From Verrucomicrobiota bacterium (lineage in GTDB: Bacteria; Verrucomicrobiota; Verrucomicrobiia; Limisphaerales; AV2), in contig QHPA01000131.1 in NCBI GenBank assembly GCA_003218935.1, forward strand, positions 1 to 13,227: a stretch of 13,227 nt of DNA. Reading direction: 5' to 3'. The position numbers and the translations under genes were made by a program. Below, in pieces: positions 1,648 to 13,227 of the stretch. How positions within the stretch are numbered: position 1 is the first letter of the stretch; each line of letters starts with the position of its first letter. The notes below the pieces were generated by a model, which worked only from the letters and a program-made list of their open reading frames with translations, searched no databases and was not told the DNA's origin.

Positions 1648-1914
1648 ATGAGCCCGGCGCTCCGAGCTCAGGTGCGGGAACGCGCCGGAAATCGGTGCGA
1701 GTATTGCCAATTGGGATTCGTTTCTCATCGGTTGCTGCAAATCGTGAACACGCCGGACAAATTCATTAAGGAAAGATCCACCTTTTATTTGTGCGCCGGC
1801 GATGATTCTGAAACCAGTTATGCAGATTGCGAGCGTGCCTTCCTAAGTGCCGTCCTTCCCGGCGAAGCGAACGCGGTATGTGGAGGCGAAGGGCAACAGG
1901 GCGCACTACATTGA
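1648..1914 (+). pseudogene. HNH endonuclease, truncated after the first Cys pair
   Basis: The first 22 residues (MSPALRAQVRERAGNRCEYC, then QL) are a typical start for a small HNH endonuclease. They include the first CxxC zinc pair (residues 17 and 20). From residue 23 on, the sequence no longer resembles the family: no HxxP-type or HNH histidine-asparagine motif appears in any frame downstream. The frame stays open to 1914 but reads as unrelated sequence, so the catalytic part has been lost and replaced. A GAGG lies only two bases before the ATG. It was presumably co-expressed with the small acidic gene just upstream. The rest (about 1714-1914) is of unknown origin. Another frame across 1870-1960 reads RYVEAKGNRAHYIDGVSEPY and could be a fragment of a different gene, which I do not recognise. 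Confidence 0.6.
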
Positions 1915-2157
1915 CGGCGTGAGCGAGCCGTATAATCGAGGCGCGAGGCACGCTCCGGTTCAGCCAATGCGCATATGCACTAGTGCTTATCGGCGGCTAG
2001 GCAGTGATGCTTATCGATGACTATGCACTAGTGCTTATACATTCCAGATTCGATCATTCTTTCACCAAACATACTTGCGTTACGCAGAACACACCCTGTA
2101 AAGGATTGCACCGCCCTAAGCGATTGGATTCGGGACTGGAAATCAAAAGTCAGGGAA
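1915..2157. other. Intergenic leader of the hybrid kinase, no gene seen
   Basis: No reading frame here looks coding except a possible short fragment running to about 1960. The stretch holds the GCACTAGTGC repeats and then about 120 bp of sequence without visible structure before the kinase ATG. A TATAAT at 1931-1936 has a TTGACG 14 bp upstream, too close for a standard promoter. The GGGA at 2153-2156 lies close to the ATG and is at best a weak ribosome binding site. Confidence 0.4.
1974..2038 (+). repeat. Two 17-bp repeats containing palindrome GCACTAGTGC
   Basis: TATGCACTAGTGCTTAT occurs exactly at 1974-1990 and again at 2022-2038, 48 bp apart. Each copy contains the perfect 10-bp palindrome GCACTAGTGC (1977-1986 and 2025-2034). 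A degenerate third copy sits between them (AGTGATGCTTATCG, 2003-2016). The set lies 120-185 bp upstream of the hybrid kinase start. It could be a paired operator for that gene or the scar of a mobile or duplicated element. The sequence shows only the repeats. Confidence 0.7.
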
Positions 2158-4443
2158 ATGCCACTGCGAATTATACATTTGGAAGACAGCCCCGTCGATG
2201 CCGTACTGCTTCGATCCTTGCTGGAATCAGAAGGCATCGAGTGTGCAGTCCGGCGGGTGGAAACCCGAATGCAATTTGAGGCTGCCCTGGAGGAGGCCGG
2301 TATAGATTTGATTCTATCTGATTTCACCCTTCCTTCGTTCGACGGATTGTCCGCGCTCAAAATCGCCCAGCAGAAGTCTCCGGGCGTGCCGTTCATTTTC
2401 GTATCGGGGACAATCGGCGAGGAGGCCGCAATTGACTCGTTGAAGGAAGGGGCAGTTGACTACGTGCTTAAAGATCGTTGGTCACGGTTGCCTGCGGCGG
2501 TGCGGCGGGCAATGCGGGAAGCGCAGGAGCGTGCCGAACGGCGGCGGGTCGAAGAAGAACTGCGCCAGGGCGAGGAACTATTTCGCAAGATCATGGAGAA
2601 CGTTGATGACCTGGTTACCGTGCAGGACGTGGAGGGCCATCGGGTGTTCACCAGTTCCTCTTACCGGCATGTCTTGGGCGATCCAGCGGCTCTGGTCGGT
2701 ACAGACGCCTTTGCTGAAATTCACCCGGAAGACAAGGAACGAATTCAGCGCATCTTTCGCGACACAGTGGCCACGGGCATTGGGCAACGGGCAGAGTATC
2801 GCTTCCTGCTCCGGGATGGCACGATCTGTTACATCGAGTCGCAAGGGAGCGTGATTCGGGACAAGGACGGCGAGGTAACGAATGTGGTGGTAGTCTCCCG
2901 CGACGTGACGGAACGGAAGAGGGTCGAACGGGAACTGATCGTGGCGGAAGCGAAGTTTCGGGCGCTGGTCGAGCAAGCCATTGTCGGCAACTACATCATC
3001 CAGGAGGGGACCCTGGTCTATGTGAATCCCAGGATGGCTGAAATCCTCGGCGAGACGCCAGAGCAGATAATTTCCCGACAATTTCTGGACTTAATCGTCG
3101 ATGAAGACCGCCCCATTGCGGCCAGAAATCTAGAGGAACGCTTGCGGGGCCAGGTGCTCCGTGCGCCCTATGAACTTCGGATGCGACGCAAAGACAGCCG
3201 CCTGATCCATGTAGAAGTCCACGGCGTGCTGACCGAATACGCGGGCAGGCCAGCGATTCTGGGCACACTCCTGGACATCACCGAGAAGAAGCGTTTGGAA
3301 GAGAAATTCCTCCGCGCTCAGAGGATGGAAAGCATTGGAGCCTTGGCTGGAGGCATTGCCCACGATTTGAATAACGTGCTGGCCCCGGTCCTCATGGCGG
3401 CGGAGTTGTTGCAAGACGAACTGTCCAGCGAGATGGGAAGGAACATGCTGGAGACGATCCGTGCCAGCGCCAACCGAGGTGCCGACATGGTCAAACAAAT
3501 CCTCTCTTTCGCCACTGGTGCTTCCGGCGAGCCGGCGGTGATTCAGCTTCGGCATCTGATCAAGGACATGGCCAAGCTGGTTCAGGACACCTTCCCGCGC
3601 TCGATCCAAGTGGAGAGCCGTGTCCCCAACGATCTCCAGCCAATCCTGGGCGATGCAACCCAACTTCATCAGGTGCTGCTGAACCTGTGCGTCAACGCCC
3701 GCGATGCCATGCCCCAGGGAGGCACACTCTTGATCCAGGCAGACAATGTCATCTTGGAAAACATATCCGTGCGCGGCAGGGAAGGTCCTCCATCCGGTCC
3801 GTTTGTCCTGCTGACGGTGTCGGATACGGGAACGGGTATCCCGGCCGAATTGCTGGACAAAATCTTTGAAACGGCTTTCACGACCAAGGCCCCTGGCAAA
3901 GGCACTGGCTTGGGACTTTCGACTGTAACCAATATCGTGCAGAAACACGGCGGGTTCGTCGAGGTATCGAGCGAAGTGGGAAAGGGCACTCGCTTTAAGG
4001 TTTATCTGCCAGCGACCGCCCAAGCCGAGCAGAAACCGGCCCAGGCGCAGCCCTCGGAACTTCCGGCAGGGAAGGGCGAACAGATTCTCGTGGTGGACGA
4101 CGAACTGGCGCTCCTGGAGATGACGAAGGAGACGCTGAAAACCTACGGTTATCGTGTATGGGGAGCGGGGAACGGAGCAGAAGCTCTGCTCCTTTACCAG
4201 CAACACCGGGATGAGATTGCCGCCGTCATCACCGATGCCATGATGCCGGTGATGGACGGCCCGGTTCTGATTCGCACGCTGCGGAATCTCGATCCCGACG
4301 TAAAAATCATCTGCGTCAGCGGGCTGGCATCGGAGCATAAGCTGGCGCAAATCGAAAAATCGCAGGTGCGCAGCTTCATCACCAAGCCGTTTACGCGGGC
4401 AACGCTGTTGACCACGTTGCGAGAAGTAATCACGTCGAATTGA
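2158..4443 (+). CDS. Hybrid sensor histidine kinase, REC-PAS-PAS-HisKA-HATPase-REC
   Basis: This 761-residue kinase has no membrane segment and is probably cytoplasmic, taking its input from another kinase or a ligand. It carries an N-terminal receiver (residues 1-120; phospho-acceptor D55 in ILSDFTLP, K105) and a coiled linker. Two PAS domains follow (about 137-255 and 260-378), each ending in a DxTE(R/K)K pattern. The dimerisation domain has the H-box GGIAHDLNN with the autophosphorylated His402. The ATPase has an N-box (NLCVNARDAMP, 509-519), a G1 box DTGTGI (556-561) and a G2 box GKGTGLGLS (580-588). A C-terminal receiver follows (641-761; D647/D648, D693, K743). All key residues are present, so it should be an active phosphotransfer protein. 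The start at 2158 leads directly into receiver strand one. The frequent PFFTTK segment reads TAFTTK here. Receiver genes follow immediately. Confidence 0.93.
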   Translation: MPLRIIHLEDSPVDAVLLRSLLESEGIECAVRRVETRMQFEAALEEAGIDLILSDFTLPSFDGLSALKIAQQKSPGVPFIFVSGTIGEEAAIDSLKEGAVDYVLKDRWSRLPAAVRRAMREAQERAERRRVEEELRQGEELFRKIMENVDDLVTVQDVEGHRVFTSSSYRHVLGDPAALVGTDAFAEIHPEDKERIQRIFRDTVATGIGQRAEYRFLLRDGTICYIESQGSVIRDKDGEVTNVVVVSRDVTERKRVERELIVAEAKFRALVEQAIVGNYIIQEGTLVYVNPRMAEILGETPEQIISRQFLDLIVDEDRPIAARNLEERLRGQVLRAPYELRMRRKDSRLIHVEVHGVLTEYAGRPAILGTLLDITEKKRLEEKFLRAQRMESIGALAGGIAHDLNNVLAPVLMAAELLQDELSSEMGRNMLETIRASANRGADMVKQILSFATGASGEPAVIQLRHLIKDMAKLVQDTFPRSIQVESRVPNDLQPILGDATQLHQVLLNLCVNARDAMPQGGTLLIQADNVILENISVRGREGPPSGPFVLLTVSDTGTGIPAELLDKIFETAFTTKAPGKGTGLGLSTVTNIVQKHGGFVEVSSEVGKGTRFKVYLPATAQAEQKPAQAQPSELPAGKGEQILVVDDELALLEMTKETLKTYGYRVWGAGNGAEALLLYQQHRDEIAAVITDAMMPVMDGPVLIRTLRNLDPDVKIICVSGLASEHKLAQIEKSQVRSFITKPFTRATLLTTLREVITSN

Positions 4444-4448
4444 AGCCA

Positions 4449-4589
4449 GTGAGTGCCCACATCTTGCTCATCGAAGACGAAGCGCCTCTCAGAACGAGCA
4501 TCGCGGAGATTCTGCGGCGCAAAGGATTCATGGTCATCGAAGCTTCTAACGGCTCTGAAATTCTCACATGGCCAGGATTCTCGTCATAG
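4449..4589 (+). pseudogene. Truncated CheY-like receiver, N-terminal remnant
   Basis: A short frame six bases after the hybrid kinase stop (GTG 4449, or TTG 4440 in the same frame) reads VSAHILLIEDEAPLRTSIAE followed by a helix and strand two (GFMVIEASNGSE). This is the first third of a response-regulator receiver, including the acidic pair E9-D10. It then runs out of frame into the next receiver gene and stops at the TAG at 4587. Strand three with the phospho-acceptor Asp and everything after it are missing. The simplest reading is a deletion that removed the rest of this receiver up to the next gene's start. The remnant is only 46 codons and cannot fold as a receiver. It is too short for most gene callers. 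Confidence 0.75.
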
Positions 4590-4936
4590 ACGACGACGCT
4601 GTGCAGCGAGTGCTGCTGAATGCGGTCTTTCGCAAACAGGGGTTGGAAGTCCTTCAGGCTGCCAACGGCCAGGAGGGAATACGGCTGGCTCGCGAGCAGA
4701 GGCCCGACTTGATCGTGTCGGACGTCAACTTGCCGGAGATGGACGGGTTCGCCGTTTTGGACCACCTGCGCAAGGAACCGATTACGGCAACCATTCCGTT
4801 CATCTTTATTACGGCCAATCCCAATGAGGCCGGTCAAAGGATGGCCAGAGAGTTGGGTGCCAATGGGTACCTGCCGAAACCGATTCCAATATCTGACTTG
4901 CAGGCACTGGTGAACGCCCAGATCCGAAAACAATAG
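4568..4936 (+). CDS. Single-domain response regulator, CheY-like
   Basis: This 122-residue protein is one receiver domain with no output domain. It starts MARILVIDDD (acidic triad D8-D10), has the phospho-acceptor D52 in IVSDVNLPEMDG, the conserved T82 in ITA and K104 in LPKPI. Such proteins act by binding partners or by passing phosphate between kinases. The neighbouring hybrid kinase on the same strand is the obvious phosphodonor. The start overlaps the remnant of a preceding receiver, and no good ribosome binding site precedes it, so expression may depend on readthrough from upstream. All residues needed for phosphorylation are present. It is the only intact member of a row of three stand-alone receivers. 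Confidence 0.88.
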   Translation: MARILVIDDDAVQRVLLNAVFRKQGLEVLQAANGQEGIRLAREQRPDLIVSDVNLPEMDGFAVLDHLRKEPITATIPFIFITANPNEAGQRMARELGANGYLPKPIPISDLQALVNAQIRKQ

Positions 4937-4950
4937 GGACTACATGCCGC

Positions 4951-5046
4951 ATGGCTAAAGTTCTGGTCATAGACGACGATGACAATTTCAGGGCAACTTT
5001 GATTCGAGGATCAAACCCGCTCACGGGATCAAGGGTGTTTCTGTGA
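4951..5046 (+). pseudogene. Truncated CheY-like receiver, 19-residue N-terminal remnant
   Basis: Fourteen bases after the intact receiver, an ATG opens MAKVLVIDDDDNFRATLIR, which is strand one, the acidic cluster and part of helix one of another receiver. After about residue 19 the sequence is unrelated and ends at the TGA at 5044. It closely parallels the start of the preceding intact receiver (MARILVIDDD), so it is most likely a paralogue cut off by a deletion. The following bases (5043-5144) form a 33-codon open frame that I do not recognise. Confidence 0.7.
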
Positions 5047-5131
5047 TTCGGGTAACGCGTCTACCTGAGAAGGCTCTTCTCAAGATCCGAAAGTTTGAGC
5101 CTCCTCACCTCGAAATCGACGACTCGAAGGG

Positions 5132-5160
5132 AAAACCGCCCTAAACCGCCGTGCGGTTTT
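5132..5160. terminator. Candidate bidirectional terminator between convergent operons
   Basis: AAACCGC (5143-5149) and GCGGTTT (5153-5159) form a perfect 7-bp stem with a 3-base loop. It overlaps the stop codon of the minus-strand regulator. An alternative outer arm AAAACCGC (5132-5139) can pair with the same right arm. The short T-run is inside the stem, so termination strength is uncertain. Position between two convergent operons supports the role. Confidence 0.4.
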
Positions 5161-5794
5161 CCAGAGCAAATTGGAGGAGGCTGTGGTTACCGTGCAAATC
5201 CAGCTTGGCCGATATGTGGGCACGATGGGCGTCAACAGTCCGCTGGCTAATGGACAATTCCATAGCGATTTCCCGGCTGGTCTTTTTCTCGGCGATGAGT
5301 TTGAGTATGCGCCGTTCGGCTTTTGTCAGATCGTTCAGACCAGGCTTCTTCATAGCGAGCTCCTCGGCACGACCGAGTCGGCGTAGGAGATAGCCTGAAA
5401 TGGTCGAGCTCAGGTAATGTTTGCCCGCCGCGACCGCGACGACACTGTTGAGGATGTCCTCTACGGCGTTTTCCTTGAGCACAAAGCCCATCACGCCGAA
5501 ATCCAGCGCGCGATTAAAAATCTCTTCCTCTTTGTACATTGTGAGAATGATCACACGTGTCGGCAGGCCTTTTCCCTGGAGTGCGCGTGCGACTTCGAGG
5601 CCGGACAGACGCGGCAGGTCCACGTCGAGCACCGCCACGTCTGGACTTTTATCCTGGATGGATCGCAACGCGGTTTCGCCATCGCCGGCCTCAGCCACCA
5701 GGTCGAAACGCGAATCAGCCTCGACTACCTGGCGTAAGCCCTGACGAAAAAGCGGATGGTCGTCCACGATTAATACTTTGATCTTTTCGGACAT
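5141..5794 (-). CDS. NarL/FixJ-family response regulator, DNA-binding
   Basis: This transcription regulator has an N-terminal receiver and a C-terminal LuxR-type helix-turn-helix. Starting at the ATG at 5794 it reads MSEKIKVLIVDDHPLFRQGL, the standard opening of this family. The acidic pair is in VDDH, the phospho-acceptor Asp is in VAVLDVDLPR (about residue 57) and the conserved Lys is in VLKENA (about 107). The HTH is in the last 65 residues (LTKAERRILKLIAEKKTSREIAMELSIS, split by family convention, then RTVDAHRAHI). A GTG at 5848 would add 18 residues of poor quality, so I chose 5794. It lies 58 bases after the ATPase end of the propeller kinase and is its expected partner. It should bind DNA when phosphorylated; targets are unknown. 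If the kinase is dead, another donor would be needed. Confidence 0.92.
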   Translation of the reverse strand: MSEKIKVLIVDDHPLFRQGLRQVVEADSRFDLVAEAGDGETALRSIQDKSPDVAVLDVDLPRLSGLEVARALQGKGLPTRVIILTMYKEEEIFNRALDFGVMGFVLKENAVEDILNSVVAVAAGKHYLSSTISGYLLRRLGRAEELAMKKPGLNDLTKAERRILKLIAEKKTSREIAMELSISQRTVDAHRAHISAKLDLHGNHSLLQFALENRTAV

Positions 5795-5852
5795 TGCCGA
5801 GGGACAGTGTGGCAGCGAACTGGATACAAATGCGAGACAGAATTCCACTGCA

Positions 5853-6359
5853 TTATTCGGTTTGCAGGATGGGAATTGTCACCTCGATGCGCGTGCCTCG
5901 ATTCGGCTCCGAGTCCACTTTCAATTTGCCGCCGAGGATGTGCACGCGCTCGGTCATATTTCGCAAGCCAATGCCGCCTGCGCTGTTCGCTGTGCCAGCA
6001 TCGAAACCGCAGCCGTTGTCCCTGACCTGCAGCAGGACTTCCCGCAGGTCCCGTTCCAGTTCGATACGCGCCCATGTGGCCCCAGAATGTTTCAGGATAT
6101 TGTTCAAACTCTCCTGGACGACGCGGTAAAGATGGGCGGCGGCGTCTGAGGAGAAGACGTCGTCAGCCGAGTCGAGCTTTCGCTCAATCGCAATTCCACT
6201 GGATTGCACGGCGCTATCAATCATTGCTTCGAGGGCGCGCGTCAGACCCAGATGGTCAAGTTGGCGGGGATGCAGGTCGCGCGAAATCTGGCGGATCTCA
6301 CTAACCGTTTGCGAAGCGAGGTGGCTGATGGCTTCAAGTTGCAGGCGCAAATCAGCAGC
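5853..6359 (-). pseudogene. C-terminal ATPase part of the propeller histidine kinase, separated by frameshift
   Basis: This is the catalytic end of the kinase encoded just upstream on the same strand, but in another frame. It begins near AADLRLQLEAISHLASQ, the second helix of a HisKA_3 dimerisation domain. It continues through IRQISRDLHPRQLDHLGL and into a HATPase domain with the N-box ESLNNILKHS, the G1 box DNGCGFD and the G2 box GGIGLRNMTERV. It ends at the TAA at 5853-5855. The ATP-binding residues are all present. The first half of the dimerisation domain, with the histidine, is in neither frame. A TTG at 6350 could in principle start a separate 165-residue ATPase-only protein, but no ribosome binding site is visible. 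It is best treated as part of one broken gene. Confidence 0.8.
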
Positions 6360-9300
6360 CGCAGCTCCGCAGCGATGCGTCTGCGCTCGGTTTCCTGCGA
6401 TAAGATTAATTGGCGCGTGTATTCTTCCTGCGTCCGTTGCTCCCTCAGCACTGCTTCTCTGCGTTCGATTTCGGCCTGATGCTGCCGAGTGATGTCACGC
6501 GTGACGCCCAGGAGCGCCGTGACGGTTCCTGCCGCGTCCCGCAGCGGCACGGCATTCGTTTCCAGACGGCGGCGCGTGCCCTTGAGGCCAACAACGTCAA
6601 ACTCCAGTTTGCCGGGCTGACCCTGAATGACCTGCTGATGCAACGCACGAAACGCGGCCTGGTACTCCGGGGCGATGAATTGCAAGAGCGGACAAGCCTG
6701 CACTTCCTTAAGGGAGGTTGCTTCCAACATAGCCAATCCAGCAGGATTCATGTCCAGCAGAACGCCATCTCGAGACACGATTTTAACGCACTCGGGCTCC
6801 GCTCTGATGATCAGGCGCAAGCGTTCCTGGCTTTGGTGTAGTGCCTCCTCCACTCGCTTGCGTTCGGTGATATCGCGAGCGATCGTCGATAAGAAATCGA
6901 GGTGGCCATCCGGCCCTTTGTGGGCAACGATGACCTGGGATACGGGAATCTCACGTCCATCACGATGCAACAGAGCAGTCTCCCCACTCCAGATGCCCGC
7001 ACTCATAGCAATCGGAAGCCCCTCTTGGACGAGGCGCGCCGTAGCCCAGGCGGGATGAAAGTCGCGGAGGTACCGCTCACCGATGTCTTCCTGCGCGCCC
7101 AGCCCGATCATCCGGCGGCCCGCCGCGTTGATGAACAGGGCACGCCCCTCGCAATCACCAAACCCGACAAAGTCGCTCGTCGCTTCGAGTACGCTGGCGA
7201 GCCGCGCCCGTTCTGCTTCGAGTACGCGACGCTGTTCGAGGCGCTCGATACGGTCGTGAAATTTGCTGCGGGTCAAGCGCCATGCCGCAAAACCAACGCC
7301 CCCCGTCAGCCCGGTCAGGGCCAGGAGGCGAAACCAGACCGTCTGCCAGACAAACGGCTGTACCGTCAGCGCGAGCGTCGCACCGGTTTCGTTCCAGACG
7401 CCATCGTTGTTCGCCGCTTTGATCCGAAATCGGATCGTGCCTGGGGCGGGCGTGTTAAAAAAGATGCTGCGGCGTCCGGTCGCGTCCACCCATTGCCCGT
7501 CGCGCCCTTCCAACTTATAGGCGAACCGTATTTTCTCCGGATCAGTGTAACTGAGCGCCGTGTAATTGACGCCAAGCTCGCGAGTGCCGGCTGGCGCAAC
7601 CACCGTGGGCTGGCCCGTCCAGGGAAGTTCTCGGAACACGCCGAAACGATCTCGACAAGTCACGCGTTCGATGAAGACCGCCGGCGGATTCGTATTGAGA
7701 TGAAGCTGGCGTGGATCAACTGTCGCCACACCTTTGAGCGTCGCGAACCACAAACGGCCCTGGCTGTCTTTCAGAGCGGTGGATTGATCGCCGTTAGCGC
7801 ACTCGATGCTCGCCATGCCGTCGCTCGAGTTGAACATCTGATACGGCAGCTTGGCCAGCACGCCGTCCGCCACCTGCTCCAAATCCTTTCGGGCCGCGCG
7901 GATCACACCGCGATTGGAGCCAAGCCAGAAGAAACCGAGATCATCGTCGACCAAACAGGTGATTTTGCGGGCTGGCAAACCTTGTTCCTCCGTGACTCCA
8001 GACCAGGAGCCGGCCCGCCACCGCAGCAGGCCGAAAGCTGATCCGCCGATCCACAAGCTTCCGTCCGGTTCGGCCCGCAGGCAGGTGATTCCCGCCACGG
8101 ACTTGCCGCCGGCGTTCCTGATCTCCTTCCAGGAACCCGACGCGAAACGAAACAACCCTTCGCTCGTCGCCGCCCAGAGCGCGCCCGCACGCGGGTCCTC
8201 CGCGAAATAGCGCGTGTCTGCCAGAGAGATGCCATCGCCCGGTGTCTGAGGCTTGAACTGCCCATCGGTAAACAAGGACACGGTTTGATTGGCACCGATC
8301 CAGATGCGGCCTTGTGAGTCCTGGAACAACGCATTGATGTCGAGGCCGCCACTGTCTGACCGAGGAATCAACCGCCGTTCCGAGCCGGTGATCACTTGCA
8401 GACCGCTCTGGAAGGTTCCCAGCCATGTACTTCCCTTTCGATCCACCAGGATACATTGCACATAAGAGCCGAATTTCTTGCCCTCCGCATCAAACAGACG
8501 AGAAATGCGCCCATCTTCGAGACGTGCGATTCCTTTGCCATAGGTTCCGAGAAGGAATCTTCCCGGAGCTTCCTCGACGACCGCCTTGACCACGGGTTCC
8601 GGCAGTCCGCTTTCGACGCCATAGTTCATGAAGGTACGTGGCTTGAGACGCGAAAGGCCCCCACCACTGCTGCCGACCCAAAGATTGCCCTCGCGGTCTT
8701 CGAAACTGAACCGGATGGTATTATACGGAAGGCCATTGGTGCAATTGTAACGGCGGACCGCACCTGTGGGCGAGACCTCGAAGAGACCTAGATGGGAGGT
8801 GCTAATGCACACGGCGCCTCGGCGGTCCTCATCCATCCGCCATACATTGTAAATCTCTTCCTTTCCAGGGGGCTCGATTCGGGAGAGGACTCGTCCCTGA
8901 TCAATCCGCAGGAGACCGGCCCCACTAAGTACCAACAAGCTGCCATCCCGCGCCGAGCTGGCAGCTTTGAAGGAGTTGGTGACGCTGCCGGCGATTTCCG
9001 ATGCTACCCACCGTTGCCCATCCCAGTAGCCGAAGAAATGGTCTTGTGCGACCCAGACGCCACCCTGGCGATCTACATAGCCGAAGTAGCCGGCGCCTTT
9101 CTTTCCGGGTGGCTCGGGCAATTCCTCAAGGCGGCCGTTCGCAGTTCGGAAAACCTTCCCGTTAAAACTCGTGATGCAGATAACGCCCGCCTGCTCGGCG
9201 AATGTCCGCGCATAATCTCCCGTCCACTTCGGCTCGCGATGAAACGCCGTCCAGCGGTGCGGCTCGCTTATGACCAGTCCCCGAACTGTGCTGACCCAAA

Positions 9301-9628
9301 GACGACCTGACGTATCGACGTGAAGATTCACGATGCCAGGGCTGGGCAACTCTGGAGTGTTGGAAGAATCGAACACGGTGAACTTCACGCCGTCGAAGCG
9401 GACCAATCCGCCGAACGTACCGAACCACAAGTAACCGTCGGCCGCCTGCACCATCGCCGTGGCCGAACTGTCCGGCAGGCCGTCGGCCGTCTCCCACGAG
9501 TGGATGAGGTAATCGCGGCCAGAACCGTCAGCCGACGGCTGTCCAGCAACCGCCCAATGGAACGCAAAGGCAATTAAACTGATGATCAGGACGCGCAGCC
9601 AAGGGCGAACGAAAACGAACTGGAACAC
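6242..9628 (-). CDS. Two-component propeller sensor kinase (sensor, PAS and partial DHp; broken at its H-box)
   Basis: This is a membrane sensor of the kind in which a periplasmic beta-propeller reads a ligand and drives a cytoplasmic kinase. From the GTG at 9628: an N-terminal signal or anchor segment (about 10-30), then a long array of propeller repeats (about 43-640, recurring DxxGxLWxGT-type strands). A Y_Y_Y domain follows (about 685-755, with LGVNYTALSYTDPEKIRFAYKLEG parts), one transmembrane helix (about 758-784) and a coiled coil (790-815). Two PAS domains come next (about 812-925 and 930-1050), each ending near RDIT. The dimerisation helix starts normally (QETERRRIAAEL, to residue 1089). 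At that point the family has His-Asp and a GQ-type helix; here the frame reads RLLICACN and ends in 38 unrelated residues. The kinase is therefore split from its ATPase (5853-6359) and lacks the phosphorylated His. Its partner regulator follows. Confidence 0.88.
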   Translation of the reverse strand: MFQFVFVRPWLRVLIISLIAFAFHWAVAGQPSADGSGRDYLIHSWETADGLPDSSATAMVQAADGYLWFGTFGGLVRFDGVKFTVFDSSNTPELPSPGIVNLHVDTSGRLWVSTVRGLVISEPHRWTAFHREPKWTGDYARTFAEQAGVICITSFNGKVFRTANGRLEELPEPPGKKGAGYFGYVDRQGGVWVAQDHFFGYWDGQRWVASEIAGSVTNSFKAASSARDGSLLVLSGAGLLRIDQGRVLSRIEPPGKEEIYNVWRMDEDRRGAVCISTSHLGLFEVSPTGAVRRYNCTNGLPYNTIRFSFEDREGNLWVGSSGGGLSRLKPRTFMNYGVESGLPEPVVKAVVEEAPGRFLLGTYGKGIARLEDGRISRLFDAEGKKFGSYVQCILVDRKGSTWLGTFQSGLQVITGSERRLIPRSDSGGLDINALFQDSQGRIWIGANQTVSLFTDGQFKPQTPGDGISLADTRYFAEDPRAGALWAATSEGLFRFASGSWKEIRNAGGKSVAGITCLRAEPDGSLWIGGSAFGLLRWRAGSWSGVTEEQGLPARKITCLVDDDLGFFWLGSNRGVIRAARKDLEQVADGVLAKLPYQMFNSSDGMASIECANGDQSTALKDSQGRLWFATLKGVATVDPRQLHLNTNPPAVFIERVTCRDRFGVFRELPWTGQPTVVAPAGTRELGVNYTALSYTDPEKIRFAYKLEGRDGQWVDATGRRSIFFNTPAPGTIRFRIKAANNDGVWNETGATLALTVQPFVWQTVWFRLLALTGLTGGVGFAAWRLTRSKFHDRIERLEQRRVLEAERARLASVLEATSDFVGFGDCEGRALFINAAGRRMIGLGAQEDIGERYLRDFHPAWATARLVQEGLPIAMSAGIWSGETALLHRDGREIPVSQVIVAHKGPDGHLDFLSTIARDITERKRVEEALHQSQERLRLIIRAEPECVKIVSRDGVLLDMNPAGLAMLEATSLKEVQACPLLQFIAPEYQAAFRALHQQVIQGQPGKLEFDVVGLKGTRRRLETNAVPLRDAAGTVTALLGVTRDITRQHQAEIERREAVLREQRTQEEYTRQLILSQETERRRIAAELRLLICACNLKPSATSLRKRLVRSARFRATCIPANLTIWV

Positions 9629-9949
9629 GCCGTAATCATTTCGTCAGAAATCGGAAGGAGCAAGCTCAGACTAATGTTGTATGGCGTGACCGTTCGGTGT
9701 TCATTCGGCGCCGGGGCACACTTGAATCGCGAATGACCCAGGCGAATCGGTCGGTGGCGGAGAACTCGCCGACACGGCGGGCGGGCGGATGGAACAGTAC
9801 GCTCCGGCGAGTTACAATTTGCCGATAAATTGGCAGCCCTTTCCAGGTGATAATGCCCGCGCCAATTGTTCGCATCAAAAAGAGCAGCAGATAGAGCCAG
9901 CAAAAAGGTTGGCCTGCTTCCACAGCCGGCGCTCATTGGGATTTTGTTT
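9629..9949. other. Stretch without a convincing gene upstream of the propeller kinase
   Basis: This should contain the kinase promoter, reading leftward, but I see no clear sigma-70 boxes. Two overlapping minus-strand open frames compete here (9586-9936 and 9666-9923, the latter beginning with a GTG). The second has a hydrophobic N-terminus (CWLYLLLFLMRTIGAGIITW) that could be a fragment of a membrane protein. Its C-terminal half looks random, so I do not call either one. Confidence 0.3.
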
Positions 9950-9976
9950 GATTAAACGAACCGGCGGTCGTTAATC
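9950..9976. repeat. Palindromic AACGAACCGG repeat, copy 1
   Basis: GATTAA at 9950-9955 pairs with TTAATC at 9971-9976, and ACGA pairs with TCGT inside. The core AACGAACCGGCGGTCGTT (9955-9972) recurs in altered form at 10038 and 10128. It could be an operator or a dispersed intergenic palindrome. Confidence 0.65.
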
Positions 9977-10030
9977 AGGGAGGGATCTGTTGAACCGGTT
10001 GCGATTTATGGATCGGGCTAGAAGACCGGA

Positions 10031-10056
10031 TTGAATCAACGAACCGGTCGTCGTAT
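10031..10056. repeat. Palindromic AACGAACCGG repeat, copy 2
   Basis: The core AACGAACCGGTCGTCGT starts at 10038, 83 bp after copy 1. ACCGGT at its centre is a perfect palindrome flanked by CGA and CG. Symmetry is weaker than in the other copies. Confidence 0.6.
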
Positions 10057-10120
10057 ACTGACGGCAGGTTTGGTTGATTATGAACAAGTTGGGACTTTCC
10101 GATTCGCTCGAAAGGCTGGT

Positions 10121-10148
10121 TTCAATAAACGAACCGGCGGTTGTTGAA
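10121..10148. repeat. Palindromic AACGAACCGG repeat, copy 3
   Basis: TTCAA (10121-10125) pairs with TTGAA (10144-10148), and AACCG pairs with CGGTT around a central G. The core AACGAACCGGCGGTTGTT starts at 10128, 90 bp after copy 2. It sits 21 bp before the ATG of the first cassette-like gene. Confidence 0.65.
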
Positions 10149-10169
10149 AGGTTCGCACTCGGTGCTCAC

Positions 10170-10419
10170 ATGAAGACTCGCATCTCAGTTTCCGTCGTCG
10201 GACTCGGTCTGATTGCGCTTCTGGGCGTTTGGTATCTGTTCACAGGTGACACGCCGCCACTTAACTGTGGGTGTGTTCACGGGTGCTGGCGGTTCACTTG
10301 CAGTTGGAGGCTCATTACCTTCCGACTCAGATGTTCAGCGGGTTCGTCAGGTCGTCGAGCGCACCGCGCCACCGGTCAGAGTTGTGTATCACGTCATCGC
10401 CACAAATGATCTCAGATAG
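10170..10419 (+). pseudogene. Small secreted or membrane-anchored protein, frameshifted
   Basis: From the ATG at 10170 the sequence reads MKTRISVSVVGLGLIALLGV followed by WYLFTGDTPPL, a clear signal or anchor segment. That frame then degrades into Cys- and Arg-rich shadow sequence. In the next frame, from about 10265, a coding-like sequence continues (TVGVFTGAGGSLAVGGSLP, then DSDVQRVRQVVERTAPP and RVVYHVIATNDLR) to the TAG at 10417. Removing one A from the AA at 10263-10264 joins them as PPLTVGVF, giving about 82 residues. I do not recognise the family. It is followed 13 bases later by a palindromic attC-like element. It is either a pseudogene or carries a one-base sequencing insertion. Confidence 0.55.
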
Positions 10420-10431
10420 ACATTGTTGTGC

Positions 10432-10533
10432 GCCGAACCAGAGCGTCGAGCCAACGGGAGGCAGCCGTTTAGCTCAGTTACAATTCCTGCGTAAGCGGCG
10501 GCTGCCTCCCGCCACTCACGCTGGTCGTTGCCC
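10432..10533 (+). repeat. attC-like element C, long imperfect palindrome
   Basis: The element begins GCCGAAC (10432-10438) and ends CGTTGCCC (10526-10533). A perfect 13-bp inner stem pairs 10455-10467 (CGGGAGGCAGCCG) with 10499-10511. Outward of it GAG/CTC, GCGT/ACGC, CAG/CTG and AAC/GTT pair again, with single bases bulged on one arm. Terminal AAC/GTT, extrahelical bases and a variable central loop (31 bases) are the hallmarks of integron attC sites. The left end shares the spacing AAC, 11-12 bases, GCCAACG with element A. The next gene starts 4 bases after the GTT. R' (GTTGCCC) departs from the GTTRRRY consensus. Confidence 0.65.
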
Positions 10534-11415
10534 GTGAGAACGCTCTCTCTTATCTTCCTGAGTTTCCTGTTTGTCGGATGCACTTCGCTCCCGCGCATGG
10601 AAAGCACGGAACTGATGAAGCGAATGACCGACACACATTCGAGATGTCAAAGTTATGAAGATGTCGGAACAATAGCCGAGGTGGAAATTGAAGGCCGTGA
10701 AACGAACACGTCACGCGTGCGTTTTCGCGTTCAGTTTGTCAGAAGCCGCGCTTTCAGGTTGGAACTTCATTCGGAGCGGCAGCATGGCATTGGACCGTAT
10801 TCTCTGGTCTATTATTGGGATGGCGCCAGATGGTCAGTCTTCAACTCGATCAATTCACATTATGGGAGCAATCCAGTGATCACGAATGCCGACGACTCGG
10901 AGGTTGTAGGTGGCGGTGTGGCTTTGTCGTATGATCTCGTGCCCTTTACTCCTCGCTTGTTGTGTCTGAGCGAGGATTTTTGCGGGTTTCGTGGTGCAGA
11001 TGAAGGGAAGTTTTCGATCAATGGAATTCCACAGACGAAAAGCGCCAAAGTGGCCATAGAGCGATTACGTCTTAGACAGGTCTATCGTCTTACGCTTCTG
11101 CGCGATGTTGCGATGTATCACGACGTGGAGGACTACTGGATTGATCCGCATACATACACTATAATCAAGCGCCGGTCGCAATACGCGAAAGACAGGGGAA
11201 ATCACACAGACTTCACCACGCGTGAGAGCACCCACCGTCCAAAGCTCGGCACGCTAACAGACGGGTCATTGATTGTGTTCAGTCCGCCACATTCACAGGC
11301 TACAAAATCACTGGACCGAATGCCGGCGGGCCACGTCAGTTGCGAATTCGGACGCACTGGGCCGCCCGCGTCGCTCAGTTTTCTCGTTGGCCTTTATGCC
11401 ACGTTCGCCGATTGA
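10534..11415 (+). CDS. Unrecognised lipoprotein, possibly LolA/LolB-like fold
   Basis: From the GTG at 10534 this 293-residue protein has a lipoprotein signal (RTLSLIFLSFLFVGC) with Cys16 as the lipidation site, so it should be anchored in an envelope membrane. The mature part opens with a helix (STELMKRMTDTHSRCQSYED) followed by alternating strands (GTIAEVEIEG, RVRFRVQFVR, FRLELHSE, YSLVYYWDGARWSVF). That pattern recalls the half-barrel proteins that bind lipoprotein acyl chains. It is inferred from the pattern only. A TTG at 10528 would add two residues. The start lies 4 bases after the GTT of the upstream palindrome and has no ribosome binding site. From about residue 255 the frame runs through the next attC-like element, so the last 39 residues are repeat-encoded, and the stop lies 20 bases inside the following gene. 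Confidence 0.78.
   Translation: MRTLSLIFLSFLFVGCTSLPRMESTELMKRMTDTHSRCQSYEDVGTIAEVEIEGRETNTSRVRFRVQFVRSRAFRLELHSERQHGIGPYSLVYYWDGARWSVFNSINSHYGSNPVITNADDSEVVGGGVALSYDLVPFTPRLLCLSEDFCGFRGADEGKFSINGIPQTKSAKVAIERLRLRQVYRLTLLRDVAMYHDVEDYWIDPHTYTIIKRRSQYAKDRGNHTDFTTRESTHRPKLGTLTDGSLIVFSPPHSQATKSLDRMPAGHVSCEFGRTGPPASLSFLVGLYATFAD
11298..11392 (+). repeat. attC-like element D, homologous to elements A and B
   Basis: It begins GGCTACAAAATCACTGG (11298-11314), matching element A's GGCTAACGAGATCACTGG. It ends GCGTCGCTCAGTTTT (11368-11382) and CGTTGGCC (11385-11392), matching A's GCGTGGCTCAGTTT. The inner arms are G/C-rich and near-palindromic. It lies inside the 3' end of the lipoprotein frame, and the next ATG is 7 bases after its GTT. 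Confidence 0.65.
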
Positions 11416-11846
11416 AATTCACGTCTCGCCAACAGGAGAATGGCAGGGCTCCGGCTTCCATGCGCATGCTTGGACGAGCGGAGACAACCGGCAGAAGACT
11501 TGGACCTACTGGTGGGTCGAAATCGAGGCCAAGAATCTTACTGCGGCTGAGTATGAGGGTTCTTCGCGACGGGACCGTCGTGGTGCAGCGCACACGACTG
11601 GTCAAGTCACCAAAGCTCTTTGCCAAGACCGGATTCGAGGACGAGGAGCCCGATCCGCCAGGTTACGGCCCGATTGGGGGAGCCGCAAAGTTGGATGCCG
11701 GAATTTACGCTGTGGATTTTTACCTTACGATTGGCGATGCCACGCACGTGTTGCGCGGAGTCCGCTTCGAGGTCGCGGAGCGCAAGGCTGCGAGTGGGGG
11801 TTGGCAGATTACAACACCATTGGCCGATGATGCTCCTAAAGGCTAA
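11396..11846 (+). pseudogene. Unrecognised soluble protein, frameshifted near 11557
   Basis: From the ATG at 11396 the frame reads MPRSPIEIHVSPTGEWQGSG and continues in protein-like sequence to KNLTAAEYE. It then turns to Arg-rich shadow sequence. One frame over, from 11559, it continues VLRDGTVVVQRTRLVKSPKL through LDAGIYAVDFYLTIGD and RGVRFEVAERKA to the TAA at 11844. Dropping one G from the GGG at 11557-11559 joins them into about 149 residues with a beta-rich, immunoglobulin-like pattern. The family is not recognised. There is no signal peptide. It begins 7 bases after the GTT of element D, and its stop lies within the first box (GGCTAAC) of element A, as cassette genes often do. It is either a pseudogene or carries a one-base insertion error. 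Confidence 0.62.
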
Positions 11847-11948
11847 CGAGATCACTGGCGCCAACGCCGGGAAGCGTCCCGGGTTTGCCGTGCCGTCGCG
11901 GGTCGCCCTTCGTCATCGGCCCTGCGTGGCTCAGTTTCGGCGTTCGGC
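11841..11948 (+). repeat. attC-like element A
   Basis: It starts GGCTAACGAGATCACTGG (11841-11858), then GCCAACGCCGG. It ends GCGTGGCTCAGTTT (11924-11937) and CGTTCGGC (11941-11948). Left AAC-GAG-CAC pairs with right GTG-CTC-GTT with bulged bases between. It shares AACGCCGG (11863-11870), GCGGGTCGC (11898-11906) and GCGTGGCTC (11924-11932) with element B in the same order. The TAA of the preceding gene is inside its first box. Confidence 0.68.
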
Positions 11949-11960
11949 GTTCGAGGGCGC

Positions 11961-12215
11961 ATGACCATTTCACCAATGAAACTCTCGCCACTGCCACTGC
12001 TCTTGCTGAGTAGCGTCTGTGTGATCTTGATCGCGCTCCTTCTCCACAGCATTCCTCAGCGGCCAGAAGGCGTGTCGGACACTGCATGGGCATTCGAGCG
12101 GTCGCGACACCTTTGGAAGGACTACTGGATTATCGGTCTCGCTATTGCAAGCGTCGGCTCATTCGGAGCAGGATGCTTGCGTTGGTTCAGACACCGAAGA
12201 GAGAGGACACAGTAA
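11961..12215 (+). CDS. Small two-helix membrane protein, unrecognised
   Basis: This 84-residue protein has two hydrophobic segments, about 8-31 (LPLLLLSSVCVILIALLL) and 55-73 (YWIIGLAIASVGSFGAGC). A polar loop with charged and aromatic residues lies between them, and the C-terminus is very basic (RWFRHRRERTQ). The positive tail suggests both ends face the cytoplasm. The ATG at 11961 lies 9 to 16 bases after the two GTT triplets at the end of element A, with no ribosome binding site. An in-frame ATG at 11976 is an alternative. I do not recognise the family. The gap to the next gene (12216-12332) has some inverted symmetry (GCTGA at 12220-12224 against TCAGC at 12266-12270) but no clear copy of the attC-like family. 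Confidence 0.6.
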   Translation: MTISPMKLSPLPLLLLSSVCVILIALLLHSIPQRPEGVSDTAWAFERSRHLWKDYWIIGLAIASVGSFGAGCLRWFRHRRERTQ

Positions 12216-12332
12216 CCACGCTGACCGCGCTGCTAATAACACTGTTCACCACGCGCTCTTGTGGGATCAGCACACTACATCGTTCTGGAGCGGAAGATCG
12301 AAGGTATATCGGACGATAGGCTTCGCAAGAAT

Positions 12333-12686
12333 ATGATTCTACGCATGGCTCAGTCTTTAGCGTGCGGCGCGGCGCTCATCTTTGCCGGCTGTACGTCTAG
12401 TCACGAGCCTGCGAGTCCGTCTTCGGGAGTGTTCCGTGGTCGCTACAAACGCGATTTCGAGGTGAGCAGCTTCACGCCATGCGATTCGTCCGAGAGATGG
12501 TGGGTATCAGGCGAAGTTCTCCCTCTTCGCGCCCCGCTCGGAGAGAAGACCGGCACGGTGTACGCAGAGGTTCGTGGCGATCTCAGCAGCAAGGGCAGCT
12601 ACGGTCATCTCGGCGCATATTCGCGAGAGCTGGTGGTACGGGAAGTTGTGACCACGCGGTTGCCGAGTGACAAGGATTGCCAGTGA
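12333..12686 (+). CDS. Small lipoprotein, unrecognised
   Basis: From the ATG at 12333 this 117-residue protein has a lipoprotein signal (MILRMAQSLACGAALIFAGC) with Cys20 as the lipidation site. A short Ser/Pro linker (TSSHEPASPSSG) follows. The mature domain reads as beta-rich, with FEVSSFTPC near its start, paired aromatics (ERWWVSGEV) and a YGHLGAYSRELVVREV segment. I recall similar small envelope proteins with an F-x-PC...WW pattern and a terminal YGHxGAY block, but cannot assign a function. The open frame extends back to a GTG at 12261; the lipobox decides for 12333. ATG 12345 would also keep the signal. It is followed by element B 74 bases on. Confidence 0.68.
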   Translation: MILRMAQSLACGAALIFAGCTSSHEPASPSSGVFRGRYKRDFEVSSFTPCDSSERWWVSGEVLPLRAPLGEKTGTVYAEVRGDLSSKGSYGHLGAYSRELVVREVVTTRLPSDKDCQ

Positions 12687-12760
12687 GTTCATGATGAGCC
12701 GGTGCCACTCGTCGCCGATGTTCAAATTCTTAATCACCATATGGTAGTCAGATGCTGGAT

Positions 12761-12845
12761 GCCTAGATCGCTGGAGCAAACGCCGGATGGCGTCTTCAGT
12801 TCCGCTGCGCGGGTCGCGTCTTTTGGCCAGCGTGGCTCGTTAGCA
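12761..12845 (+). repeat. attC-like element B, homologous to element A
   Basis: It starts GCCTAGATCGCTGG (12761-12774), which matches element A after a four-base gap in the first box. AACGCCGG (12779-12786), GCGGGTCGC (12809-12817) and GCGTGGCTC (12830-12838) follow in the same order as in A. It ends CGTTAGCA (12838-12845). The next gene's GTG is 21 bases after the GTT. Confidence 0.65.
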
Positions 12846-12862
12846 GTCATCGCTGTTGTGCT

Positions 12863-13227
12863 GTGCTCAAAACGCTGTCACTGATTGGTTACATCGGAAT
12901 GATTGGTGGCCTAGTTGGACTTCTGGCCATGCATGCTATTTTCTCGCCTTCTGCATGGGTCATCGCGATACAAGTCGTCGCCTTGTTGCTCGGGGTTTGG
13001 GCGCGAGTAACCTTTGGTCGCCGCAGTTATCATGTTGCCGCGAATCCGACCGAGGGCGGCCTGGTTACTTGGGGACCTTATCGCTACATTCGACATCCGA
13101 TCTACACGGCTATTTGCCTGGCGACCTTAGCCGGCGTCGGAGCGCACTGGTCGTTGAAAACGGGTGTTTGCGGAGGAGTTGTGGTTGGTAGCCTGGTGAT
13201 GCGGATATTCTGCGAGGAGCGCTTGCT
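12863..13227 (+). CDS. Isoprenylcysteine carboxyl methyltransferase-like membrane protein, 3'-partial
   Basis: From the GTG at 12863 the frame is open to the window end (121 codons plus two bases). It starts with two hydrophobic segments (IGYIGMIGGLVGLLAMHAIF and WVIAIQVVALLLGVWARV). It then has the motif GLVTWGPYRYIRHPIYTAIC, which is the diagnostic loop of the ICMT/phospholipid methyltransferase-like family. A further hydrophobic stretch (CGGVVVGSLVM) and RIFCEERLL near the edge fit the start of the C-terminal S-adenosylmethionine-binding part. Bacterial members are membrane enzymes that methylate varied lipid or small-molecule substrates; the substrate here is unknown. The start has no ribosome binding site and lies 21 bases after the GTT of element B; ATG 12899 is an alternative. 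A shadow frame (12856-13191) overlaps it. Confidence 0.82.
   Translation, partial: MLKTLSLIGYIGMIGGLVGLLAMHAIFSPSAWVIAIQVVALLLGVWARVTFGRRSYHVAANPTEGGLVTWGPYRYIRHPIYTAICLATLAGVGAHWSLKTGVCGGVVVGSLVMRIFCEERL

Follow-up and report, generated by a model that had tools for sequence, protein, structure and literature searches.

The 13,227-base window is the whole of one contig (C114) from the draft genome of a Verrucomicrobiota bacterium (G000; 546 contigs, 3.83 Mb, 82% complete), and all genomes compared with it are likewise drafts. Its last 3.3 kb holds a row of plus-strand genes separated by four imperfect palindromes, termed E1 to E4, and a dispersed repeat at 9933-10151 on the same strand stands in front of them. 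An earlier note had described the region from 10432 onwards as a gene-cassette array of the kind called a cluster of attC sites lacking integrases (CALIN). The analysis reported here indicates that this 3.3 kb is probably an integron gene-cassette array with four attC sites, taken jointly with the repeated block as its likely attI and promoter and with an integrase likely acting in trans.

The attC sites were identified with a covariance model, R1, made by aligning 34 attC sites from other members of the same genus or order; the sites of the window and of G000 were excluded. Eighteen of the 34 came from contigs carrying intI and 16 from contigs fetched for their likeness to E1. As a strict regular expression gave too few attC sites, fold symmetry and R boxes were used instead, and manual selection then gave the 34 sites, with coding-region look-alikes, some near-duplicates, and the site of the window's own genome set aside. 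The sites have R and L boxes in common, together with an extra unpaired base. In their stem, R boxes included, 93.5% of cells pair, a share that drops to 25-42% if the partner is slid, and in 13 of 20 pairs both sides have changed; these pairing statistics are only partly a test because the sites had been picked for pairing. Applied to both strands of the window without filters, R1 returned exactly four good sites, all on the plus strand and scoring 25.8-58.2 bits, and the fifth-best match reached 10.3 bits. They are the four palindromes of the earlier note, in the same order and on the same strand.

E1 (10432-10533, with the model match ending at 10532) scored 35.2 bits and carries R'' GCCGAAC and R' GTTGCCC; E2 (11298-11392) scored 39.9 bits, with GGCTACA as an off-consensus R'' and GTTGGCC as R'; E3 (11841-11948) scored 58.2 bits, with GGCTAAC and GTTCGGC; and E4 (12761-12848, listed to 12845) scored 25.8 bits, with GCCTAGA and GTTAGCA. 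The E1 score is not a blind test because E1-like contigs and four E1 relatives (L147:817, L152:8084, L157:537, and L160:686) feed the model, while E2-E4 guided no choice of model sites. The GTT triplets reported at 10527, 11386, and 12839 are present, as are the starts at 10534, 11396, 11961, and 12863; a GTT also exists at 11949, but it is a second one, the R' box of E3 being GTTCGGC at 11942-11948. Measured against the consensus RYYYAAC/GTTRRRY, E1 and E3 have both AAC and GTT, and E2 and E4 have GTT without AAC, so the divergence of the boxes suspected earlier applies to the R'' boxes of E2 and E4 but not to those of E1 (GCCGAAC) and E3 (GGCTAAC), which are close to consensus. In relatives, the boxes are full. 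The suggestion of another cassette-like system can thus be set aside, because the attC families to which the window's sites belong have canonical boxes in relatives.

E1 has relatives in 10 of 97 genomes, its own counted. Over 72 bases, E2 shares 87.5% identity with an attC that follows another gene in G004:C245, E3 is 81% identical to L152:6395-6499, and the short outer arms of E4 recur in the same form in G004 and G001. Across G000, R1 found sites on nine of the 546 contigs, C114 and eight others, at least 17 in all with E no higher than 0.15 (150 of 4039 first-look candidates scored). The window itself contains four attC sites within 2.5 kb and no integrase on the contig, which fits the definition of a CALIN (two or more neighbouring attC sites with no intI close by), and the far end of its array lies past the contig end. 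On these sequence grounds, the four elements are integron attC sites, and their binding by IntI and recombination are predicted.

The block at 9933-10151 contains three 27-base repeats starting at 9946, 10029, and 10119, and a search with 9723-13227 as the query revealed its recurrence, over 9933-10148. At least 14 copies were found on 12 contigs of six genomes, with at least three each in G000 (C114, C540, and C121), G004, G001, and G078, and at least one each in G003 and G075. These copy numbers are lower bounds, as three candidates were scored for each genome and the query included attC sites. In their aligned parts, the copies are 85-94% identical to the window within the genus and 77-84% identical in G078 and G075. 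A same-strand attC follows 281-1343 bases past the block in 11 of the 13 copies that could be judged, the fourteenth lying at a contig end. Contigs C540 and C121 of G000 had first been fetched for their attC sites, which R1 found before the block was noticed. As a control, another repeat of the window (1806-1976) was found twice among 37 loci of the genus, both times on a single contig that has no attC.

All 14 copies end alike, with GTTGAATAAAAG or a close variant. Ten of them complete this end with GTT, the start of the cassette R' box, which places the predicted crossover in the window between G10151 and T10152. Four copies have 1.2-1.3 kb of upstream DNA in common at 88-92% identity up to this junction, and the four long copies have nothing in common in the 900 bases past it. 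Because the common upstream DNA exceeds 1 kb and contains no intI, the block was presumably already free of an integrase gene before at least these four copies multiplied. A frame of at least 60 residues begins soon after the block in 12 of 13 copies examined, and no two of the 12 first-frame proteins are related at E 0.001, with the window's frame misread in that comparison. The block thus shows the marks of an attI, namely a constant sequence up to a G that is followed by the TT of differing cassettes, and a position at the head of arrays. It is likely an attI-like head into which cassettes are predicted to insert, and the array would begin at about 10152 rather than at 10432, where the earlier note had placed its start.

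Several observations concern the surroundings of the block. Two tandem copies about 0.75 kb apart lie at L252:54-226 and 845-974, with a frame and no recognised attC between them. About 1 kb of upstream DNA common to four copies (L204:1-1080, L250, L251, and L253) holds a conserved basic frame (...KGGKWRQIFMSKGNKLRQICRRLLSLFESAANAA...). Compared with Rfam, the DNA upstream of the block gave one sub-threshold match and no family over threshold. When the 1.2-kb upstream unit was checked for a transposon-like end, identity was instead found to fade gradually.

Within the block, a promoter-like pair, TTGAAT-17-TATACT (10031-10059, plus strand), matches at 9 of 12 positions. TTGAAT is kept in 12 of the 14 copies, and the second hexamer reads TATATT, TATACT, or TATAAT in 11. 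A leader frame, MNKLGLSDSLERLVSINEPAVVE, follows on the plus strand; it comprises 23 codons and ends with TAA three bases before the crossover in seven copies, and in the window it is left without a stop of its own and runs from 10080 to 10409 into the first cassette gene. Differences between one G001 copy and one G078 copy fall on codon positions 1, 2, and 3 in the numbers 5, 1, and 8, a weak hint of a translated leader peptide.

C114 showed no phage-type integrase domain and nothing over the cut-off of TIGR02249, and the best match of an IntI query in the window, at E 0.10, was not convincing. The absence of an integrase reported earlier holds for this contig only, because G000 carries a full-length integron integrase on contig C305 (9790-10740; TIGR02249, 438.9 bits against a cut-off of 265); that C305 and C114 belong to one cell rests on binning. 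Upstream of this intI lies a cassette-like frame cut by the contig end, and the closest named relative of the integrase, at 76% identity, is from an uncultured Verrucomicrobiae bacterium. Integron integrases were detected in 20 of 58 genomes searched, including this one, and in two of the five genomes of the genus (G000 and G004). A profile of the block found no copy in 100 intI loci, among 1.8 Mb, and the only match to the IntI query near block copies is a recombinase of 29% identity that lies some 3.3 kb upstream in L250. Unlike an attI in the sense of a site adjoining intI, the block had no integron integrase gene beside any copy in these searches. Nor does the contig hold a complete integron, since intI is on C305 and 9.7 kb of other DNA precedes the block.

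Strings of at least three GTTNNNN heptamers were observed within 500 bases after intI in 4 of 20 loci of the same order (L016:9531-9669, L155:1963-1990, L167:12337-12371, and L031:1922-1977) and in none of 80 named loci. Those near intI make up seven of nine strings in 898 kb, and elsewhere in the genus 13 strings occur in 649 kb. The heptamers have the form of an attC R' box, and they were considered as recombination sites; the numbers are small, and the likeness may be coincidence.

Exchange of cassettes can be followed at a different locus of the genus, next to a cytochrome-b-like gene. There, the attI sequences of G000:C46, G001:C76, and G004:C621 agree up to AACTG/TT and then continue into different cassettes; the same attI also stands beside intI in G004:C432 and beside an intI fragment in G003:C79. 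At the other border, G000, G001, G004, and G003 have common DNA that starts with ATGCGGC or a close variant, and a GTT precedes it in three of the four. Between the borders lie two attC sites in G000, and in G001 nine on the right-hand contig and two on the left-hand contig, these two contigs presumably being the ends of one array. Judged by these alignments, cassettes are gained and lost as units in the genus, at a locus other than the window's, with breaks at G/TT. The earlier note had proposed asking whether an attC model scores above background, whether the elements occur genome-wide, and whether units are gained or lost among relatives. All three answers favour its reading: the window's sites stand far above the rest of the window, sites in G000 are rare and clustered, and the arrays at the common locus differ in their cassettes. 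G000:C46 (L202:11400-11669) combines attI with DNA common to the intI start region of G004, followed by cassettes and with no intI gene, and G003:C79 (L226:4219-4371) retains an intI end fragment at attI (81% over 42 residues); both look like integrons that lost intI.

In the window, the gene units of the earlier note stand as integron cassettes, but their inventory changes: gene A and gene 2 are split, gene 1 runs through E2, and genes 3 and 4 form one unit. The limits of all but the last cassette are putative, and all lie on the plus strand. Cassette A (10152-10527) contains gene A (10170-10419) in two frames and is closed by E1; the piece in its second frame is similar to the gene that comes directly after the block in G003:C497 (13 of 39 residues identical). 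Cassette 1 (10528-11386) carries a predicted lipoprotein-like gene (10534-11415), whose frame continues through E2 to 11415. Of 320 genomes of the order, two contain gene 1; the gene has eight relatives among 5.8 billion proteins and gave zero Pfam or NCBIfam matches. Its homologue in G004 is 51% identical and is followed by a different attC. Nine homologues are alike up to about FSPP, after which four (P0003, P0004, P0006, and that of G004) read AN and then diverge to their ends; in the G004 DNA, this AN is the R'' box GGCTAAC.

Cassette 2 (11387-11942) carries gene 2 (11396-11846), which is split over two frames near 11553-11560 and is found in only 1 of 320 genomes of the order, its own, with 26 relatives among 5.8 billion proteins. 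A 95% relative from another source (P0014) has the identical shifted start, so the frame break is probably no read error. The TAA of gene 2 (11844-11846) lies in the R'' box of E3, as had been reported of one stop codon. Unit 3 (11943-12839) contains gene 3 (11961-12215) and gene 4 (12333-12686), between which R1 found no attC. The statement that the starts lack a ribosome binding site fails at 11961, where GAGGG stands a few bases before the ATG. Gene 4 has five homologues, including the window's own protein. A 58%-identical relative occurs in a metagenome-assembled genome of the Pyrinomonadaceae, which we take to be Acidobacteriota, and this fits cassette traffic between phyla. Cassette 5 (12840-13227), cut by the contig end, carries a methyltransferase-like gene of the ICMT family (from 12863 to beyond 13225; PF04140, 30 bits against a cut-off of 24). 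Bases 12739-13227, gene 5 included, recur at 95% identity in G004:C491 and at 94% in G001:C395, where a different gene precedes; position 12739 was considered as a cassette edge and dropped after alignment. The split genes A and 2, the passage of gene 1 through E2, the off-consensus R'' of E2, and the short arms of E4 mark the window's cassette bank as apparently partly decayed.

Upstream of the array, window 1969-9722 is 98-99% identical, in three pieces, to G004:C41, in which neither attC nor the block was found, and 210 bases (9723-9932) sit between this DNA and the block. A search of G000 for the right flank of G004:C41 yielded only two short repeats, and a clean empty site did not emerge. 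Rfam gave nothing for the window at E up to 5, region 9723-13227 gave zero matches in plasmid and phage collections, and a 47-base pattern of the block gave zero matches in viral contigs. A second dispersed repeat (1806-1976 and 1969-2040), with two copies at 85-87% in G004:C41, overlaps three tandem 24-base repeats.

Taken together, these observations are best explained by a cassette array that is headed by a repeated block, likely attI plus promoter, and filled by an integrase likely supplied in trans, and we hold this explanation with fair confidence. The integrase of C305, or one not assembled, would insert cassette circles between the final G of the block and the TT of the cassette. The promoter of the block would then transcribe the array, and the leader frame may help to translate cassettes without a ribosome binding site, a role that has been reported for ORF-11 in attI1. 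With several block copies per genome, one genome would hold several small integrase-less cassette banks. A broader form of this explanation is a distributed integron, in which an integrase-less platform of promoter, leader, and attI was multiplied over the genome in the genus and some relatives, an integrase in trans fills each copy with a bank of its own, and several first-position cassettes are expressed at once; we consider this broader form to be evenly balanced between true and false.

Several results weigh against this explanation. Two of the 13 judgeable block copies (G001:C7 and G078:C111) have no attC downstream, four of 14 lack the terminal GTT (one has TTT, three neither), and the proportion of copies that head an array may be too high because the query held attC sites and three candidates were scored per genome. 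A tblastn search with IntI on the contigs with block copies found no integron integrase, so none is linked to the block in the loci covered, and the attI beside the G004 intI and at the cytochrome-b locus differs from the block in sequence. Taken alone, the promoter match is near chance (one in 900 bases against 0.4 expected in shuffles), and the leader frame is intact only in the seven copies mentioned and is broken in the window. Within the array, neither gene A nor gene 2 stays in a single frame, and at 12739 the likeness starts 22 bases before E4, away from G|TT, so this join does not represent a clean exchange of cassettes. The bottom-strand folding check suggested earlier bore out E1 (z against shuffles, -3.4) but not E2 (-1.1), E3 (-0.5), or E4 (-1.6), whose folding energies are no better than those of shuffles.

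The alternative that survives best is an ordinary CALIN, in which the cassettes were cut off by rearrangement or inserted in trans at an off-target, attG-like site, with the block as a bystander repeat. CALINs are common and such origins are in print, as far as the accessible parts of the articles go (PMC8618304, PMC12444791); moreover, the block profile gave zero matches at the other attC places of G000 (C24, C322, C435, C467, and C143), and the two block copies without an array are as expected of a bystander. The placement of 11 of 13 block copies at the 5' end of same-strand attC arrays, the divergence of the copies at G/TT, and the missing attC link of the control repeat at 1806-1976 nevertheless make this alternative rather unlikely. 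Less likely still is a former integron at this place that lost intI, leaving block and array as remains. Such loss does occur in the genus, as the intI end fragment beside attI in G003:C79 illustrates for another locus, yet the upstream DNA common to four block copies has no IntI match, and at least those copies multiplied without intI. It is very unlikely that a complete integron was broken by assembly, with the integrase joining this contig. The assembly is fragmented, the array reaches the contig end at 13227, and C305 also ends inside a cassette-like frame. On the other hand, integron cassettes point away from intI, and in the window that side is occupied by 9.7 kb of other genes (1969-9722 being the part that resembles G004:C41), with no convincing match to IntI; the far side past 13227 lies outside this evidence. 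Chance palindromes between ordinary genes, which the shuffle-like folding energies of E2-E4 would allow, are already refuted by the model scores, the covariation, and the cassette turnover in relatives, and we give that reading practically no weight.

Compared with known systems, the window's array is like a CALIN in having at least two attC sites, one cassette direction, and no integrase on the contig, and differs in its repeated attI-like head with a promoter-like pair and a leader frame. We know of no such head for CALINs. In the accessible parts of the open-access literature, which describe integrase-less arrays and attG insertion, no multi-copy attI heads were found. Complete chromosomal integrons of the same order (G048:C183 and G045:C6) have the same kind of attC sites, but there intI and array stand together, whereas the window's array and block stand without intI. 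The block end GAATAAAAG/TT resembles the minimal cores given for attI1, AAACAAAGTTRRRY, and attI2, AATAAAATGTTRRRY, in the accessible text of PMC12901181. Like attI1 with its promoter Pc and the short frame ORF-11 before the crossover, the block has an upstream promoter-like pair, a short frame, and G/TT (PMC8876359, PMC12901181, as far as these sources are accessible). Unlike attI1, it has no adjoining intI, exists in several copies per genome, and is unrelated in sequence except for the short core; its leader stops at a TAA of its own ahead of the crossover, whereas in attI1 ORF-11 and the crossover overlap. The attI found at the cytochrome-b locus and beside intI (G000:C46, G001:C76, G004:C621, G003:C79, and G004:C432) is likewise common up to ...TTTAACTG/TT and then followed by differing cassettes, but its sequence is unlike the block, and it stands beside intI in G004:C432 and beside an intI fragment in G003:C79. 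Insertion at attG sites outside integrons would also give intI-less arrays (PMC12444791, PMC12901181); in the accessible parts of these sources, attG sites are many and varied in sequence, whereas the block is one recurring sequence.

The attC array alone is ordinary, because Verrucomicrobiota are already among the phyla listed with integrons in the accessible part of PMC8618304. The surprise for a specialist would be the multi-copy integrase-less platform rather than the attC part.

In the usual integron, the integrase, attI, and promoter lie in one place, and good expression is confined to the first cassettes of one array. If the explanation proposed here is true, several integrase-less attI platforms would uncouple the capture and expression of cassettes from the integrase locus, and many cassettes would hold the first position simultaneously. 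Some of the widespread integrase-less arrays would then gain a defined origin, with the repeated attI-like head as a testable mark.

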